NCBI RefSeq assembly: GCF_013041615.1
Contig: NZ_JABEPQ010000002.1
Location: 744,001 to 808,000 of the forward strand
DNA length: 64,000 nt
Source: Knoellia koreensis
GTDB taxonomy: Bacteria; Actinomycetota; Actinomycetes; Actinomycetales; Dermatophilaceae
Reading direction: 5' to 3'
The notes beneath the pieces are model-generated. The model saw nothing but the letters and a program-made list of their open reading frames with translations. It did no database searches and was not told the origin of the DNA. Every line of letters starts with the position of its first letter. Within the stretch, counting starts at the first letter, position 1. Shown here in pieces: positions 31,430 through 46,446 of this stretch. The position numbers were made by a program, and so were the translations under genes.

Positions 31430-32551
31430 GCGGTCGCGCCACTCCTCGAGCACCTCACCGAGGCTGACTTCGCGGGCGGTCGGCGGCACCGGCGCAGCCC
31501 GTCGGGAGAAGCGTGGCGCAGGTGCAGCCTGCGGTATGCCGCCCGCCTCGGCGATGACTCCCCGCGCAGCCAGGTGCGGGTCGGCCTCGGCCTCGTCCCA
31601 CGTGAGGACGGGGGTCACGCAGGCGTCCGTGCCGGCATACACCGCGTCCCACTCGTCACGGGTGCGGCTGGCGAACGCGGCCGCGAGCCGCTCCCGCAGC
31701 CGCGGCCACTGGTCGCGGTCCCACTGCCCGGGGACGTCGCCCGACTCGAGGCCGAGACCGGCGAGCATGGCGGCGAAGAACTGCGGCTCGATGGCGGCGA
31801 CGGCGACGTGGCGGCCGTCGGCACACGCGTAGGTGTCGTAGAACGGGGCGGACCCGTCGAGCAGGTTCGTGCCGCGGCCGGTCCGCCACAGCCCCGCGGC
31901 TCGCATCGACCACTGCATCTGGGCGAGCGCGCTCACACCGTCGACGATCGCCGCGTCGACGACCTGCCCACGACCCGTGCGCTGCCCCTCCCACAGTGCC
32001 GCCAGCACGCCCACGACGAGGAACATCGACCCGCCGCCGAAGTCGCCGACGAGGTTGAGGGGCGGCACCGGTGGCTCGCCCGCGCGGCCGATGTTGTCGA
32101 GCACGCCAGTGAGGCCGAGGTAGTTGAGGTCGTGGCCGGCGGTGTGCGCGCGCGGACCGTCCTGCCCCCAGCCGGTCATGCGGGCGTAGACGAGGCGCGG
32201 GTTGGCCTCGAGGCACTCGTCGGGCCCGAGCCCGAGCCGCTCGGCCACACCGGGACGGAATCCCTCGACGAGGACGTCCGCGCCAGCCACGAGATCACGC
32301 ACCTGCGCGAGGTCGTCGGCCGACTTGAGGTCTGCGTGGACGACCCTGCGGCCGCGCAGCAGCACATCGGGCGAGTCGCCGGCGCCGGGCACGAGGTCGG
32401 CGGTCGCGCCACGCCGCTCGACCCGCACGACGTCGGCGCCGAGATCGGCGAGCACCATGCACGCGTGCGGGGCGGGACCGATGCCGGCCAGCTCCACCAC
32501 CCGCACGCCGACGAGCGGCCCGGTCGGGTGGTCGGGTGATGGGGTGCTCAC
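31421..32551 (-). CDS. CaiB/BaiF family CoA transferase (alpha-methylacyl-CoA racemase-like)
   Basis: 376 residues from GTG 32551; the frame upstream is non-coding in character. Class III CoA-transferase fold: [62 protein letters not shown], and [12 protein letters not shown], followed by the catalytic region [17 protein letters not shown]. The pattern HDLNYL with GPxPF-type loops fits the racemase branch, which epimerises 2-methylacyl-CoA during branched-fatty-acid degradation. A TAACCT box just upstream suggests leaderless transcription. No beta-oxidation genes are adjacent. Confidence 0.88.
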
Positions 32552-32574
32552 CCTGCAGAGGTTAGGGCGCCGGG

Positions 32575-32710
32575 GGTATGCCGTGTCGCGGGCGGGCGAC
32601 CACGCTCGCCGTCCGCGGGGCGGCCTCGTGCTCAGCCGGGCGCGCGAATGCTGACCACGGTCGTCGGCCGGCGGCCCCCTCGGGCGCACGGGGTGAGCAC
32701 GCGGCATACC
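32575..32710. repeat. Intergenic element bounded by inverted GGTATGCCG(C/T)GTG arms
   Basis: The left arm GGTATGCCGTG (32575-32585) and right arm CACGCGGCATACC (32698-32710) are inverted copies of the heptamer-containing word. The interior 32593-32636 is 37/44 identical, without gaps, to 44091-44134 next to tRNA-Ala, so at least part of the element is dispersed. It lies between the CoA-transferase and sigma/RsbT genes, both reading away from it. Confidence 0.6.
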
Positions 32711-32777
32711 TGCTGACCTGCGGCGACATCGACCACCAAGGCCGCGCGCGGACCGGTCCGGACGTAGGGTTGGGGCC

Positions 32778-33860
32778 GTGACCGCTACCTCGGCGGGGGT
32801 TGAGGGACCTCCTCCTGAAGCCGACGAGCTCCTGGCGCTGCTGCGCCGGGTGGTCGGCGCACGCGTAGGCGGGCACCCGGACGCCGAGGACCTGGTGCAG
32901 GAGGCCTACCTGCGCGTGCTCGCGGCCTCGGACCGGATCGACCCGGGGATGACGGAGGCGTATGCCGTCACCACGGCACGCAACCTCGTCGCCTCGCACT
33001 GGCGGCAGGGTGACCGCTTCAAGCGCCACCAGCACCGACTGGTCGACCTCGACGAGCCTGATGACCCCGTGCGCCGGATGGAGGGCATCGAGGACCAGGG
33101 CGCGATGGCGCGGGCGCTCGCGACGTTCACCGACGACGAACGGGAGCTGCTGGTCGCCCACGAGGTCCACGGCACGCCCACCGCCAAGCTCGCCGCGGAG
33201 CAGAACTCGACCGCGGGAGCCGTCGCCGCCAAGCTGCACCGGCTGCGCGCCCGGCTGCGGGTGGAGTACCTCCTTGCGCACGAGAACATCGACCTGCCCA
33301 GTGACGAGTGCCGCCCGGTGCTCGTGGCCGTGTCCCTGCGGGACCGCCGGCGGCAGCGGGAGACCAAGGCTGAGAACCACCGGCTGCGCTGCGAGGTCTG
33401 CCAGGACCTGGCCCTGCGGCTCGAGCAGCAGGAGCCCGAGCGCGACGACTTCGCCCGCATCCGCATCGCCGTCGACGCCGACATCGTCACCGCCCGGCAG
33501 AAGGCACGCGAGCTGGCGAGCGCACTCGGCTTCCCCGGGGTCGACCTCACCGTCATCGCGACCGCCGTGTCGGAGATGACCCGAAACATCGTCCGGTTCG
33601 CCGGCGAGGGACAGGTCGAGATCGAGCTCGTGAACGGCGAGGCACCCGGCCGACGCGGCGTCCAGGTCATCGTGCGTGACGCCGGACCCGGCATACCCGA
33701 CATCGAGGCGGCGATGCGCGACGGCTACAGCACGTACCACGGCCTCGGCCTCGGGCTACCCGGCGCACGCAGGCTCATGGACGACTTCGAACTGGTGACC
33801 GCGGACGGTCGCGGCACCACCATCACGATGACCAAGTGGCAACAAGGAGCGAAGAAGTGA
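32778..33860 (+). CDS. Sigma-70 (ECF-like) factor fused to zinc anti-sigma segment and RsbT-type kinase
   Basis: 360 residues with four parts. Residues 18-90: sigma region 2 ([29 protein letters not shown]). Residues 105-168: sigma region 4 ([33 protein letters not shown]). Residues 172-215: a zinc anti-sigma-like HxxxCxxC (His201, Cys205, Cys208, with Cys178 upstream). Residues 225-360: a GHKL kinase of RsbT type, with N box [12 protein letters not shown]1 DAGPGIPD and G2 [17 protein letters not shown]. RsbT is the stressosome's switch kinase. TAGGGT stands 7 nt before the GTG, so the start is probably leaderless. Its stop overlaps the rsbR start. Confidence 0.9.
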
Positions 33861-34762
33861 GCGAGAGCATCAGCACCGACCCGTTCGGCGGGCTCGACAC
33901 CACGTCCACCGCGGTGACCGACGAGCAGCTCCTGCCCGAGCTCGTGGCCCACCTGCGCGAGCACCGCGCCAAGCTGCGCGACGAGTGGGCGCGCCGCATC
34001 CAGGAGGCGCACCTGCTCGAGGCCATGACCGCCCAGGAGATGGCGGTCGAGACCACCTCGGTCTACGACAACTACGTCGAGGTGCTCGAGACGGGCAGCG
34101 TCGAGGCGCTGCAGCAGTACGCGCGCGACCTGTCCGAGCGGATCATCCCGCGCGGGGTGGAGACGCACGAGGTCGTCGGCATCGTCCTGCTGCTGCGCGA
34201 CGTTCTCGCCCGGTCGCTCTTCGAGAAGTACCAGCGAGACTTCGGCCTCCTCAACCAGATTCTCGACGCCTACGAGCCGGCGGCCAACCGGATCGCCAAC
34301 ACCGTGGCGGTCAGCTTCGTCGAGGAACGCGAGCGCGTCATCCGCCAGCAGCAGGACGCGCTGCGCGAGCTGTCGACGCCGGTGCTGCCGGTCCGCGAGC
34401 GGCTGCTGATCCTGCCGATCATCGGCGTCCTCGACAGCGAACGCGCCCGCCAGCTCACCGAACAGCTGCTCACCGGCATCCGCACCCACCGCGCCAAGGT
34501 CGTCGTGATCGACATCACGGGTGCCCCCGAGGTCGACGCGGTGGTGGCCAACCACCTCGTACAGACCGTCGACGCGTCACGCCTCATGGGTGCGAGCGTC
34601 ATCATCACTGGACTGTCCCCGACCATCGCCCAGACACTGGTGACACTCGGGGTCGACCTCAGCAAGATGAACACCATTGGTGACCTCCAGGGCGGCCTGG
34701 AGGAAGCAGAGCGGCTGCTCGGCTTCACCGTGACCAAGGAGGAGGGCTCGTCCCAGCTGTGA
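33857..34762 (+). CDS. rsbR: Stressosome protein RsbR-like (RsbRD N-domain plus STAS)
   Basis: 301 residues from GTG 33857, overlapping the previous stop. The N-terminal half (about residues 20-165) is an all-helical RsbR co-antagonist domain with LLPELVAHLREHRAKLRDEW and FGLLNQILDAYEPAANRIA. The C-terminal STAS domain begins ELSTPVLPVRERLLILPIIG. Both phosphorylatable threonines known from Bacillus RsbRA have equivalents: Thr in LSTPVLPV and Thr in VIDITGAP. It should form the sensory scaffold with RsbS. The globin-like sensor fold of B. subtilis RsbR is replaced by the RsbRD type, so the signal is unknown. Confidence 0.9.
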   Translation: MSESISTDPFGGLDTTSTAVTDEQLLPELVAHLREHRAKLRDEWARRIQEAHLLEAMTAQEMAVETTSVYDNYVEVLETGSVEALQQYARDLSERIIPRGVETHEVVGIVLLLRDVLARSLFEKYQRDFGLLNQILDAYEPAANRIANTVAVSFVEERERVIRQQQDALRELSTPVLPVRERLLILPIIGVLDSERARQLTEQLLTGIRTHRAKVVVIDITGAPEVDAVVANHLVQTVDASRLMGASVIITGLSPTIAQTLVTLGVDLSKMNTIGDLQGGLEEAERLLGFTVTKEEGSSQL

Positions 34763-35154
34763 GCACCGGACCGGCGCTGTTTTCGATCCTGCGACAGGGT
34801 CAGTACCTCGTCGCGTCGGTCCACACTGCCCTCGACGACTCCCAGATGCTGCGGCTGCAGGGTGACCTCGTCGAGGAGGTCGGCCGGTCCCGCAGCCGCG
34901 GGATCATCATCGACGTGGCCGCGCTGGACGTGCTCGACTCCTTTGGCACCAAGACCCTGGGAGCCATTGCGGAGATGGCCCGGCTGCGGGGTGCGACCAC
35001 GGTGATCGTGGGGATCCAGCCCGATGTCGCCTTCGCGATGGTGCAGCTGGGCATGGGCACAGGGGCCGTCGCCACCGCTCTCGACCTCGAAGAAGGACTC
35101 GCCTTCCTCGATGACACGCTGGCTCTGCCGTCCACCGTGCGGCACGGTCAATGA
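34759..35154 (+). CDS. rsbS: STAS-domain protein RsbS-like
   Basis: 131 residues, one STAS domain. The pattern FSILRQGQYLVASVHTALDD, then GIIIDVAALDVLDSFGTKTLG, then ATTVIVGIQPDVAFAMVQLG matches RsbS. Ser in VLDSFGTK corresponds to the serine RsbT phosphorylates to release itself from the stressosome. The GTG start overlaps the rsbR stop (GTGA), so stoichiometric translation is expected. Chain length and lack of an N-terminal domain separate it from RsbR and make RsbV less likely, though an RsbV-like role in direct kinase binding cannot be excluded. Confidence 0.88.
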   Translation: MSTGPALFSILRQGQYLVASVHTALDDSQMLRLQGDLVEEVGRSRSRGIIIDVAALDVLDSFGTKTLGAIAEMARLRGATTVIVGIQPDVAFAMVQLGMGTGAVATALDLEEGLAFLDDTLALPSTVRHGQ

Positions 35155-35447
35155 CGACCCCGGCGACCGACGACGGGCTGACCCGCAACTACCGGGCGGC
35201 CTTCCTGCGCTACCTGCCCCGCCAGGACGAAGCCGCGCTCGCGGCGGCATACGACCTCGGCCGGTCCTCACTTCATGACGGCGTCAGCGTCCTCGACCTG
35301 GTGACCGTGCACCACCACGTGCTCGGGGAGGTCGTGCGCGCGACCGTCGTGGACGACGTGGACGACGTGGTGCGGCGGGCCGGTGAGTTCCTGGCCGAGG
35401 TGCTGGCGACCTCGGACATGGTGCAGCGCTCCCTGCAACGCGACTGA
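35151..35447 (+). CDS. Free-standing RsbU N-terminal domain (RsbT-binding)
   Basis: 98 residues, entirely helical. The pattern LTRNYRAAFLRYLPRQDEAALAAAYDLGRSSLHDGVSVLDLVTVHHH matches the N-terminal domain of RsbU, which dimerises and docks RsbT. In RsbU this is followed by a PP2C phosphatase, but here the protein stops after the domain and no PP2C gene follows. ATG 35151 overlaps the rsbS stop by 4 bp. It may act as an RsbT sink, adapter or decoy. A terminator-like hairpin follows directly. Confidence 0.82.
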   Translation: MTTPATDDGLTRNYRAAFLRYLPRQDEAALAAAYDLGRSSLHDGVSVLDLVTVHHHVLGEVVRATVVDDVDDVVRRAGEFLAEVLATSDMVQRSLQRD

Positions 35448-35448
35448 C

Positions 35449-35472
35449 CCTCCCCCTTTGGGGGGGTGGGGA
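35449..35472 (+). terminator. Terminator of the stressosome-like operon
   Basis: A run CCCTCCCCC followed by TTTG and GGGGGGGTGGGG forms a GC-only stem with a small loop starting within 2-3 bp of the last stop codon. No T-tract follows. The downstream secreted-protein gene is therefore likely expressed separately. Confidence 0.6.
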
Positions 35473-35703
35473 TGCCAGAGGGCTGCCAGAGGCGCAGTAT
35501 GCCGCGCGGCTGGCATCCCGGAGGACGTGCGTTTGCGCAGGTCAGCGGCGTGGACGCGACGGGCCGCAGCACATGACGCGGGAAACGGCAGCAATTTCTC
35601 GCGAGATCCGCTTGCCCAGCCCGCGTCATGCCGGAAGGGGCTGGCGCTCTACTCCCGTGATGGCGGCCAACCGCTGCCACGACCGCTCACGAAGGAGTTA
35701 CCC

Positions 35704-36255
35704 ATGAACCTCCGTACCACTCTCGTCAGTGGCGCCACCGCCTCGGTCCTCGCCGCCACGCTCTTCGCGGCCCCCGCGATGGCCTCCGCCGCCCCTGCTG
35801 CCGCCGCCAAGCCGGCCGCCATGGGGCAGGCCAAGAAGGTGGCGTCCTCGACGGTCCCCGTCACCGGCACGCTCGCCGACGGCTCCGCCTTCAGCGGCGC
35901 GCTGAGCGGCCTCAAGACCTCCGTGGTCGACGGCGTCCTCACCATGACCGGCACCGTCACCGGCACCGGGCTGCCGGCCGGCGGCACGACCTTCACCGCC
36001 CCGGTCCAGTCCCTCGCCGCCCCGGCCGGCTGCAACATCCTCAACCTCGACCTGGGGCCGCTGCACCTCGACCTGCTCGGTCTGGTCATCGACCTCGCCC
36101 CGGTCAACCTGGACATCACCGCGGTGCCCGGCAGCGGCAAGCTGCTCGGCAACCTGCTGTGCGGCATCGCCAAGATCCTCGACACCGGCGGCCCGCTCTC
36201 GGCCCTGCTGAACAAGCTGAACAAGCTTCTCTCAGGCCTCGGCCTGGGACTGTGA
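35704..36255 (+). CDS. Secreted small hydrophobic protein of unknown function
   Basis: 183 residues. A clear signal peptide (residues 1-30, cleavage after AMASAAPA-type alanines) precedes an Ala/Lys stretch, a beta-rich segment with repeated Thr-Gly (VPVTGTLADGSAF, TMTGTVTGTGLP) and a Leu-rich C-terminus in which Leu-Asp pairs repeat (LNLDLGPLHLDLLGLVIDLAPVNLDI). It ends in a Leu/Gly helix. Two cysteines (NILN, LLCG segments) could be bridged. ATG 35704 has AAGGAG 9 nt upstream, a strong site. I do not recognise a functional family; the type is widespread in actinobacteria. Tandem strong hairpins follow. Confidence 0.75.
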   Translation: MNLRTTLVSGATASVLAATLFAAPAMASAAPAAAAKPAAMGQAKKVASSTVPVTGTLADGSAFSGALSGLKTSVVDGVLTMTGTVTGTGLPAGGTTFTAPVQSLAAPAGCNILNLDLGPLHLDLLGLVIDLAPVNLDITAVPGSGKLLGNLLCGIAKILDTGGPLSALLNKLNKLLSGLGLGL

Positions 36256-36291
36256 TGTAAAGCGGGTCACAGCTCCCGGTTGGGAAGAAGA

Positions 36292-36394
36292 GGGTCCCGG
36301 CGCCACGCCCCCTCATCGGTGGCGCCGGGACCCGGCCGGTTCATCCCGGTTGCAGGACGAAGCGGGTCGGGCACGCCAGGTGCCCGACCCGCTT
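36292..36394 (+). terminator. Tandem terminator hairpins after the secreted-protein gene
   Basis: Hairpin one: GGGTCCCGGCGCCAC (36292-36306) pairs perfectly with 36319-36333 across a 12-nt loop. Hairpin two: AAGCGGGTCGGGCA (36360-36373) pairs perfectly with 36381-36394 across 7 nt and ends in TTT. Two perfect stems in a row suggest a strongly expressed upstream gene. Confidence 0.8.
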
Positions 36395-36431
36395 TCGCCT
36401 GTGCGCCAACGCTTTACGGCTGCAGAGGCGA

Positions 36432-36462
36432 GGTATGCCGTGTGGTCACCACGCGGCATACC
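36432..36462. repeat. Minimal inverted GTATGCC element
   Basis: GGTATGCCGTGTGGT (36432-36446), a single C, then ACCACGCGGCATACC (36448-36462): a 31-bp near-perfect palindrome with one wobble. It sits 4 bp before the end of the ROK gene and is the shortest form of the paired heptamer arms also found at 32575-32710 and 57778-57865. Confidence 0.8.
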
Positions 36463-36466
36463 CCGG

Positions 36467-37651
36467 CTATCGCCCGGCGAGGGCGAACTGGCTGGCGGTC
36501 ACGGCCGCGCCGCGCGCCCAGTCCTCGAAGGTGAGGGGTTCGACGGTGACGTCGAGCTCGTAGGTTGCGGTGTTGCCGGGGCCGGACTGCATGCGGTCGG
36601 CGATCGTCTCGCGCATGGCGGGCCTGCCCGCGACCGGTTCGACGCCTTCACCGGCGAGCAGGATGCGGTCGGTCTGCAGCGCGCCGGCCAGGGTCGCGAC
36701 GAGGTGGCCGAGGGCGCGTGCCGCAGCATCGAGCAGCCTCGCCGCCCTGCGGTCCCCGTCGGCCGCCGCGGCCACCACGTCGTCGAACGACATGGGGCGA
36801 CCGAACGACTCGGTCGCCCGCGCCTCGATCTCCCACTGGTCGAGGTAGGAGCTGACACAGCCACGGTGACCGATCCCGCACCGCGGCCCGCGACCGTCGA
36901 CGGGTGAGTGGGTGAGCAGCTGGCCGTTGTCCACGAGCCGTTCGACGACCACCCCCTCGCGCACGACCCCGATGCCGATGCCTGCCCCCACCGTGACGAT
37001 GCCGAAGGTCGAGCGGCCCCGCCCGGCGCCGAGCCAGAGCTGCTCGCGGACCAGCGCCGTGACGTCGTTCGTGGTGATCACCGGCACGTCGAGGCGTTCG
37101 CGCAGCAGCCGGGTGAGGTCGACGTCGCGCCAGCCGAGGAAGCTGCCTTCCTGCACCACCCCGTCGGGCCGCACAATGCCACCCAGCGAGATTCCAACGG
37201 CGTCGAGAGTGCGGTCCCTGGCCAGCTTTCGGGCAAGCCGCGCCACGACGGAGACGACTTTTCCGACGGGCACCTCTCCGTCCGTGTTTGCTTGGGGCAG
37301 AGGCGCTTTCGCGCTCGCCAGCACGGTGCCGGCCAGGTCGCAGACGACGGCGTATGCCGTGTCGCCGGTGAGCTTGCAACCCAGGACGGTGCGCGCCGCA
37401 GGGTTGATCGAGAGGACCTTGGCCGGCCGGCCTGCCCCCGCTCCGGGGGCTGGCTGACGCTCTTCACCGTTGCCGTTCTCGAGCACGATCCCCAGGTCGA
37501 GTAGGGCCCGCGTCAACCGGGTCATCGAGGCGGGCGAGAAGCCGAGCCGCTCCCCCAGGGCGGCCCGCGAGGAGGGCCCGTGCATCAGCAACAGGCGGGT
37601 CACGTCGAGCTCGGCATGACTCAGGGGACGAGCTCGGTCGACGGTGGCCAC
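36467..37651 (-). CDS. ROK family transcriptional regulator
   Basis: 394 residues. N-terminal winged helix (about 12-75: SHAELDVTRLLLMHGPSSRAALGERLGFSPASMTRLTRALLDLG) followed by the ROK sugar-kinase-like domain. The ATP/phosphate loop region is diverged. The zinc motif of ROK proteins is present as GHRGCVSSYLDQWEIE with the upstream CGIGH, and ISLGGIVRPDG and VTVGAGIGIGV are family elements. It is divergent from a sugar ABC transporter/alpha-galactosidase operon and should repress it until a galactoside binds. A TAATCT -10 box lies 6 nt before the GTG at 37651, fitting leaderless translation. Confidence 0.9.
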   Translation of the reverse strand: MATVDRARPLSHAELDVTRLLLMHGPSSRAALGERLGFSPASMTRLTRALLDLGIVLENGNGEERQPAPGAGAGRPAKVLSINPAARTVLGCKLTGDTAYAVVCDLAGTVLASAKAPLPQANTDGEVPVGKVVSVVARLARKLARDRTLDAVGISLGGIVRPDGVVQEGSFLGWRDVDLTRLLRERLDVPVITTNDVTALVREQLWLGAGRGRSTFGIVTVGAGIGIGVVREGVVVERLVDNGQLLTHSPVDGRGPRCGIGHRGCVSSYLDQWEIEARATESFGRPMSFDDVVAAAADGDRRAARLLDAAARALGHLVATLAGALQTDRILLAGEGVEPVAGRPAMRETIADRMQSGPGNTATYELDVTVEPLTFEDWARGAAVTASQFALAGR

Positions 37652-45862: not shown

Positions 45863-46446
45863 GGCCGGGTCACCCCCTTCTCCTGCAACGCCAGCCGCAG
45901 GCTGCGCAGCCCGTAGTGCAGCCGCGACTTCACGGTGCCCTCCGGCACGTGCAGCTCGGCGGCGATCTCCGCAACCGAGCGTCCCTCGTAGTAGGCAGCG
46001 GTGATGACGCGGCGGTGTTCGCTCGACACCTGCGCCAGCCCGTCGGCGATGAGCCACCGGTCGAGCACCTCGGTCGCGCGGTCCGGCTCGACCACCTCGG
46101 GCGCCTCCACCCCGGCCAGCTCGTGCCGCGACACCGCACTGCGCCACCGGTCGATGACGAGGTTGCGCACGACCGTGAACAGCCAGGCGCGGTGCTGTGG
46201 CTCGGTGCGCGCCCCCAGCTGCGGGTCGCGCCAGGCGCGCAGCAACGACTCCTGCACGACGTCCTCGGCAACCTGGGCGTCCCGCGTGAGGCGCAGCGCG
46301 AACCGCCACAGCTCGGCGGCGTGCCGGTCGTGCAGACCCTGCAGCACGGCCTCGCGCTGGTCCGCCTCCACCGCCACTCCTTCGCCCGTCACTGCCGCCA
46401 GCACCGCCCGGTCACCATCTCCCCGCACCTGATCTTCCCGCCACAC
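45859..46446 (-). CDS. ECF sigma factor of the SigK/SigL type
   Basis: 195 residues. Region 2: LHDRHAAELWRFALRLTRDAQVAEDVVQESLLRAW with core-binding LFTVVRNLVIDRWRS. Region 4: LAQVSSEHRRVITAAYYEGRSVAEIAAELHVPEGTVKSRLHYGLRSL. Spacing and the downstream membrane anti-sigma match groups regulated by RskA-like proteins. The start codon is uncertain: GTG 46446 or a GTG six codons later. The stop overlaps the anti-sigma start. An upstream GGGAAAGG could be a -35 of an autoregulated promoter, which is inference. Confidence 0.9.
   Translation of the reverse strand: MWREDQVRGDGDRAVLAAVTGEGVAVEADQREAVLQGLHDRHAAELWRFALRLTRDAQVAEDVVQESLLRAWRDPQLGARTEPQHRAWLFTVVRNLVIDRWRSAVSRHELAGVEAPEVVEPDRATEVLDRWLIADGLAQVSSEHRRVITAAYYEGRSVAEIAAELHVPEGTVKSRLHYGLRSLRLALQEKGVTRP

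Follow-up and report, generated by a model that had tools for sequence, protein, structure and literature searches.

How does a stressosome reach its sigma factor when the kinase that it binds and the sigma factor are one chain? The question is raised by a four-gene block on the forward strand of a 64,000-nucleotide stretch of Knoellia koreensis DNA (contig NZ_JABEPQ010000002.1, positions 744,001 to 808,000; hereafter the window, with positions counted from its first letter). The first gene, here called sigT as a working name, encodes an extracytoplasmic function (ECF) sigma factor, a segment of the zinc anti-sigma (ZAS) type and an RsbT-type kinase in one protein, and is followed by rsbR, rsbS and a gene for a free RsbU_N domain (rsbUN). 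The block is genuine and conserved, and it wires two known modules together. The leading hypothesis, to which we assign a probability of about 0.62, is that the fused kinase lets the stressosome hold the sigma factor itself, and that release would directly turn on the regulon; most of the remaining probability lies with variants in which docking on RsbU_N is the trigger.

The four products were assigned to families with Pfam and NCBIfam models. In the sigT product, Sigma70_r2 scores 47.7 bits (cut-off 24) over residues 17-80, and HATPase_c_2 scores 52.3 bits (cut-off 27.4) over residues 235-353. The complete RsbT-type kinase read by the initial annotation within the 360-residue chain is borne out by the latter score and by the kinase boxes described below. 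Of the two sigma regions that it had read, region 2 is upheld directly; region 4 falls below the cut-off in the window (Sigma70_r4_2, 21.9 against 25.7 bits) and is supported across the alignment, where 35 of the 40 proteins give a match to the model at E<=1, these being all that have a sigma part (best E 6e-10). The sigma part matches TIGR02937 sigma70-ECF at 66.6 bits (NCBIfam, cut-off 42.9) and has regions 2 and 4 only, with region 3 not among the Pfam matches, which identifies it as an ECF sigma factor. RsbR matches RsbRD_N (25.1 bits, cut-off 24.3) and STAS (51.3 bits, cut-off 22.6), RsbS is a lone STAS domain, and the fourth product matches RsbU_N (54.4 bits, cut-off 25.5); it was correctly annotated as an RsbU N-terminal domain without PP2C. 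RsbR and RsbS also match solved stressosome chains (E 7e-38, by phmmer, and 9e-23), which are named in the tables only as RsbR and RsbS and which we take to be those of Listeria. As expected of a stressosome module, the gene beside rsbR and rsbS encodes an RsbT-type kinase in which the N, G1 and G2 boxes are all present. Each pair of neighbouring genes overlaps by 4 bp in the window, exactly as first described.

The occurrence of the fusion was assessed in 98 relatives and then in the 186 genomes returned for the family. A full-length fusion is present in 26 of these 186 genomes. All 10 fusions in a sample of the order (n=396) belong to the same family as the window, and an even sample of the phylum (n=396) adds two, G424 and G486, which are fragmented metagenomic genomes of another class; the family of G424 has the fusion in 2 of 21 genomes. 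The same chain with adjacent rsbR and rsbS is thus found in 28 genomes, to which the counts out of 28 below refer. In every one of them the order sigT-rsbR-rsbS-rsbUN is kept and sigT is a single uninterrupted open frame. The fusion is therefore not an assembly error, and a sequencing error that joins genes, a concern raised in the initial annotation, or one that shifts the frame can be ruled out. The 4-bp overlap, with starts chosen by script, is kept between sigT and rsbR at 16, between rsbR and rsbS at 24 and between rsbS and rsbUN at 21 of the 28 loci, and the widest gap at any joint lies before rsbR in the two distant genomes (60 and 87 nt). Mean identity to the window is 0.55 for the fusion, 0.84 for RsbR, 0.67 for RsbS and 0.46 for RsbU_N. 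Among the 186 family genomes, G003 has the kinase part alone and no full fusion, and G216 has an additional lone kinase. A scan of genome contigs with poorly suited peptides returned 76 weak, mostly sigma-only matches; none of those listed extends past query residue 254 or is, by this measure, a fusion, and the scan was not used. No report of a sigma-RsbT fusion was found among the papers listed in the literature searches, which did not reach the ECF reclassification of 2021, the RsbRST survey of 2005 or the actinobacterial survey of 2015.

Conservation within the fusion was examined at the level of domains and of single residues. Mean pairwise identity is 0.67 for sigma region 2, 0.68 for sigma region 4, 0.68 for the ZAS segment and 0.71 for the kinase. 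The N-terminal extension and the linkers reach only 0.32-0.47, which indicates that the four domains are all under constraint. The HxxxCxxC segment was first described with H201, C205 and C208 as ligands; these hold, and a fourth, C178, had been missed. Each of the four is present in 28/28 fusions, and the same four zinc-type ligands occur in 7/7 aligned sigma-ZAS relatives without a kinase. A role of this segment as a gate is plausible from the four ligands and their presence throughout these relatives. In the kinase, N box residues E266 and N270, G1 residues D301, G303 and G305 and G2 residues G322, G324 and G326 are each invariant (28/28), as is S61, which had correctly been read as the RsbS target serine.

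The two regulatory positions of RsbR behave differently from this invariant core. In our own reading of the phmmer alignment, in which the solved RsbR chains differ from one another at both places, position 194 corresponds to T171 of B. subtilis and position 228 to T205. At position 194, 21 loci have Ser (the window among them), 4 have Gly, and Thr, Gln and Ala occur once each; at position 228, 16 loci have Glu, 6 Gln, 3 Val, 2 Ala (the window among them) and 1 His. The earlier statement that RsbR has both regulatory threonines was wrong, and the second position is Ser or Thr in none of the 28 fusion loci. Where RsbT is a lone protein (four loci), the residues are Ser, Ser, Ser and Thr at the T205 position and Ser, Ala, Ser and Ser at the T171 position. 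In B. subtilis, as described in PMC3944199, phosphorylation of T171 and of S59 promotes signalling and is not strictly essential, and phosphorylation of T205 is regarded as inhibitory when stress is extreme. By their sequences, the fusion systems are without a brake site of the T205 type, and its loss from 28 systems (with Glu in 16) offers a natural test of the role of that site.

In the 28 fusion genomes, RsbU_N has exactly one match per genome (E<=0.001), which is the free domain of the operon, and an RsbU_N-phosphatase has no match in any of them at the same threshold. The window's own genome has two SpoIIE-type PP2C genes, both elsewhere and neither with an RsbU_N match; near the operon of this genome, no RsbX-type reset phosphatase was found. 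Two of its four STAS domains lie inside the operon. These two phosphatase genes and a lone RsbW-like HATPase gene of the same genome (L195, at G000 C9:456268, L193 and L194) are unlinked to the operon.

These features can be set beside known systems. The block resembles the RsbRST-SigB systems of B. subtilis and Listeria in its RsbR with sensor and STAS domains, its RsbS with the target serine and its RsbT-type kinase. It differs from them in that RsbT is not free and diffusible but fused in one frame to an ECF sigma factor, that the RsbU_N-phosphatase is unmatched, that the operon is without rsbV, rsbW and sigB, and that the second phosphorylation site of RsbR is lost. An RsbT-RsbU_N pair between scaffold and output is shared with stressosomes of other outputs, in which, as described in PMC12143880 and PMC9237108, RsbU_N is carried on PP2C, GGDEF or histidine-kinase proteins; by those accounts their effector is joined to RsbU_N, whereas here it is RsbT that carries the effector, and RsbU_N is bare. 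Other stressosomes in the cited work reach their output via a protein bound by RsbT; in the present block a single molecule comprises both RsbT and the output.

The anti-sigma factor RsrA is of the ZAS type and has an Hx3Cx2C motif with one upstream ligand. The zinc-type segment of sigT is likened to it and to RshA (in the account of PMC8999054) by this ligand pattern only; unlike both, it lies within the sigma chain itself, and no Pfam zinc-finger model among the families listed matches it. In its layout, the chain also resembles ECF52 (SCO4117), ECF48 and ECF53, which are described as sigma factors fused to a zinc finger and a membrane segment (PMC5826349, PMC8999054), with an extension that PMC8999054 expects to act as an anti-sigma factor. 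In all 28 fusions, as in these groups, ECF regions 2 and 4 are followed by a zinc-type segment in one chain; unlike the proteins so described, the fusions have a soluble RsbT kinase in place of the membrane helix and the outer part.

In the absence of stress, the RsbT domain would dock on the RsbR-RsbS scaffold, parking the attached ECF sigma factor, and the ZAS-type segment between sigma and kinase would serve as a built-in anti-sigma clamp. Following stress, the kinase domain is predicted to phosphorylate RsbS at S61 (and in most species probably RsbR at position 194 too) and then to depart from the scaffold together with its sigma. The RsbU_N protein may catch the freed RsbT surface, which would block re-docking, open the clamp, or both, and the freed sigma would drive CGCGTCAY-N18-TCTTCA promoters, that of a neighbouring gene, sec, first. 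Binding of the RsbT domain to RsbR and RsbS and phosphorylation of RsbS are proposed here by analogy with the family; parking and release of sigma, clamping by ZAS, capture by RsbU_N and the motif as the promoter of this sigma are proposals of this analysis. The direct coupling suggested by the initial annotation gains support from the block kept in 28 genomes, the invariant core residues of every domain, the single free RsbU_N, the lack of any RsbU_N-phosphatase match in these genomes and the fusion-linked promoter-like motif, and the steps that we infer are the binding of the kinase to RsbR and RsbS and its release. A multi-step relay is apparently replaced by a single protein; if this is true, there is no need of a phosphatase, of an anti-anti-sigma factor or of a separate anti-sigma factor, and the long-standing question whether RsbT release from the scaffold is itself the signal becomes directly testable as transcription from one promoter.

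The gene sec (also a working name) encodes a presumed target of this kind. Its signal peptide was read by eye, and Pfam gives no match above cut-off for its product. At 23 of 28 loci it is the neighbour of the block (downstream of it at 15, upstream of it in the same orientation at 7 and on the opposite strand at 1), and it is present in 23 of 26 fusion genomes of the family, as against 4 of the 160 others. Before sec in the 23 loci, CGCGTCAY-N18-TCTTCA is found exactly in 14, with one mismatch in 4, with two in 2 (including the window) and with three in 2, and is missing from 1. Spacings of 12-24 were tested and gave a peak at 18 only; locus L169 has an exact match at 21. An independent control is given by the four family genomes that have sec without the fusion (L226, L227, L228 and L295): there, the best sites within 600 bp before sec have 4, 5, 4 and 5 mismatches, and neither strand of the stretches examined has a site with two or fewer. 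The motif is a candidate target promoter of the fused sigma factor. The features of the locus are collected in Table 1.

Table 1 Features of the sigT locus, in positions of the window.
Feature	Coordinates	Strand	Remarks
sigT (working name), ECF sigma-zinc segment-RsbT kinase fusion	32778..33860	+	360 aa, GTG start
sigT sigma region 2	32826..33017	+	residues 17-80; D38, Q41, E42, R46 invariant, 28/28
sigT sigma region 4	33102..33257	+	residues 109-160
sigT zinc-type segment	33309..33401	+	C178-x22-H201-x3-C205-x2-C208
sigT RsbT-type GHKL kinase	33474..33845	+	residues 233-356; N, G1, G2 boxes
rsbR, RsbRD_N sensor and STAS	33857..34762	+	two regulatory positions: S194, A228
rsbS, single STAS domain	34759..35154	+	S61
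rsbUN, free RsbU_N domain	35151..35447	+	98 aa, without phosphatase
TAGGGT, putative TANNNT-type -10 box of a leaderless operon promoter	32765..32770	+	7 nt 5' of the sigT start codon
sec (working name), secreted-type protein	35704..36255	+	183 aa; linked gene, presumed target
Candidate target promoter	35622..35653	+	CGCGTCAT-N18-TCTACT; second box with two mismatches to CGCGTCAY-N18-TCTTCA
Divergent second copy	35549..35580	-	CGCGTCAT-N18-TCCACG

Further targets were sought by counting the motif genome-wide. There are 24 exact copies in 17 of the 26 fusion genomes, 2 in G003 and 12 in 12 of 159 others, and the reversed exact pattern gives 4 copies in all 186 genomes. The 24 copies comprise 15 sec promoters, 6 in the sister genomes G053 and G120, and 3 in the remaining 24 genomes. 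With one mismatch allowed, 58 sites are spread over 28 genomes, as against 5 for the reversed pattern; downstream frames were inspected for part of these, and sites in coding or unclear context were excluded from the regulon evidence. A cytosolic relative of sec follows the motif upstream of sigT in L159, L162 and L168 (with spacing 17 in L168) and divergently from sigT in L177; these four proteins match sec with an hhalign probability of 82.8 (E 9e-6). Among the candidate targets, sec and its cytosolic relative are taken as the strong case. Weaker leads, named by eye, are a small one-helix protein in L156, L158 and G120 and a channel-like membrane protein in G120. Another weak lead named by eye is a DUF4331-like gene, which lies about 0.5 kb after a one-mismatch site, on checking in G211 only. 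Matches to CGCGTCAC-N18-TCATCA inside rsbR were dropped as coding sequence. In L156 and L158, a motif-like site with two mismatches, CACGTCAT-N18-TCRTCA, lies on the minus strand about 23-30 bp before sigT and precedes the small one-helix protein, and in G120 (L275) a protein resembling it follows an exact motif.

Many sec promoters are accompanied by a divergent partner. Of 22 loci, 17 have the first box in inverted orientation 5' of the sec promoter (16 strictly, L177 with one change). Read on the minus strand, all 17 have TC at a spacing of 18, which lies within GCGTCCGG in 10 of them, and the second box of the divergent member is G+C-rich. Box-to-box distances are 49, 70, 79-80, 89-91 and 99-102 bp, in steps of roughly a helical turn. 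The best period is 10.4 (17 loci, R 0.85), with p 0.0018 on 9 distinct values and the period searched, under a null of uniform distances that ignores kinship. G053 has two pairs, at 81 and 89 bp, and both members of the 89-bp pair have a TCTTCA-like box. Against a phased pair stand the decayed site in G003, with its inverted box out of phase at 120 bp, the 5 of 22 loci that have no inverted box, and the other inspected one-mismatch sites, which mostly lack one. The phasing suggests that two complexes might sit on one helix face. A dimerising transcription switch of RsbT and RsbU_N, in which two released chains on an RsbU_N dimer would read the phased divergent CGCGTCAT-N18-TC pair, is a doubtful extension of this; the TCTTCA member may be the productive one, with the G+C-rich member (GCGTCCGG) anchoring rather than melting. 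If true, this would be a new way for a sigma factor to use promoters, working as two bound copies.

Several observations weigh against the hypothesis that the stressosome holds a sigma factor which reads this motif. Because the regions that supplied the consensus are also those that were scored, the shuffled regions (n=46,000; none at one mismatch or fewer, 0.05% at two) overstate the case. Related regions also share ancestry, and the motif could be read by a different sigma factor that accompanies the fusion. The two distant metagenomic genomes have neither sec beside the block nor a site with at most one mismatch, and the window's own genome is also without any such copy, its sec promoter having two mismatches. 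On the + strand, the motif is missing from the operon's own promoter (best of 220 bp, 4-7 mismatches in the 28 loci). Once the sec promoters and G053/G120 are set aside, the fusion genomes show no excess of exact copies (3 in 24, as against 12 in 159 others). Moreover, a zinc-finger anti-sigma model is absent among the 25 listed of 26 families found in the 40 aligned proteins, so that ZAS is assigned here from how the ligands are spaced and conserved. If instead RsbU_N is the activator, ZAS would hold sigma off regardless of the scaffold, and docking of RsbT on an RsbU_N dimer would open ZAS, possibly dimerising the sigma chains. The retention of rsbUN in all 28 loci despite the lack of an effector points in this direction, as do the two divergent motif copies at phased distances before sec. 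Residues R240 and R244 of the kinase, which we take to correspond to R19 and R23 of RsbT, are invariant (28/28). They are spaced like these two residues, which PMC12143880 names together with E24 and Y28 of RsbU; the E24 equivalent, E27 of RsbU_N, is invariant in 28/28 by a mapping from a weak alignment (E 0.48), whereas the Y28 equivalent, position 31, is not conserved. The same source describes the N-terminal domain of B. subtilis RsbU as its dimerisation and RsbT-binding domain and models two RsbT per RsbU dimer; in that model, however, RsbT also contacts the RsbU linker, most of which the free domain lacks, and among the four proteins conservation is lowest in RsbU_N. On balance, activation by RsbU_N is possible and rather unlikely.

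The remaining alternatives concern the fused chain itself. GHKL kinases of the RsbW/SpoIIAB superfamily bind sigma factors, and the kinase part could act as an anti-sigma of that kind on its own sigma part, with RsbS and RsbR as anti-anti-sigma partners and scaffold parking unneeded; the best NCBIfam kinase models are indeed SpoIIAB (47.7 bits) and RsbA (42.7 bits), both below cut-off. RsbW-type kinases, however, grip sigma region 3, which ECF sigma factors lack, and the partners in the operon are RsbR and RsbS. The kinase is, moreover, 49-58% identical to most of the lone RsbT-like kinases compared (61% to the remnant in G003), among which L184, L186 and L191, and also L192 at 40% identity, lie beside rsbR and rsbS. 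This arrangement appears improbable. It is more improbable still that the chain is primarily a redox or metal sensor with RsrA-like zinc release, for which the stressosome merely sets the threshold: the invariance of the four ligands would suit such a sensor, but they are shared with the seven membrane-type relatives, for which PMC8999054 expects proteolytic activation of the extension, and the zinc site may thus be structural only. A degenerate sigma part, which would leave a tethered kinase only, could be read from the sub-threshold score of region 4 in the window; it is already disfavoured and hardly credible, given that regions 2 and 4 are conserved nearly like the kinase, that the region 2 core is invariant and that a promoter motif is linked to the fusion.

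The origin of the fusion was approached through its relatives. The seven sigma-ZAS relatives (L182, L183, L185 and L187-L190) come from other classes of the phylum and are 37-48% identical to the window over the sigma-ZAS part; as judged by eye, a hydrophobic segment and a tail replace RsbT in them, which is the architecture published for ECF52, ECF48 and ECF53. On an unrooted quick tree of the sigma-ZAS part, the 28 fusions lie on one side of a branch with a Shimodaira-Hasegawa-like approximate likelihood ratio test support of 98, opposite 6 membrane-type rows (L190 excluded). The fused kinases need 4 label changes on a weakly supported quick tree, and a single origin of the fusion is thus not shown by the kinase. 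The simplest history would be that a sigma-ZAS protein swapped its membrane tail for RsbT, and a sigma-ZAS cassette with an exchangeable C-terminal partner (membrane tail or RsbT) illustrates the swapping of signalling modules. G003 (L178/L279) has the kinase part only, immediately preceded by a copy of the sec promoter motif. On the tree this kinase clusters with its fused counterpart in G005, a genome from the same genus (support 82), and tblastn detected neither rsbR nor rsbS within the surrounding 13 kb. By these sequence features, the locus in G003 is a decayed one.

A few minor observations concern the operon and its surroundings. Scans for sigma-70 promoters and terminators (32500-36500) and against Rfam (32000-37000) gave no match. 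Autoregulation through CGCGTCAY-N18-TCTTCA is unsupported on the + strand, given the mismatch counts reported above. A further ECF-type sigma match lies in the window at 45892-46272 on the minus strand (G000:C8:789892-790272). A TANNNT box is found 5-9 nt before the sigT start in 19 of the 28 loci, as against 0.11 expected.

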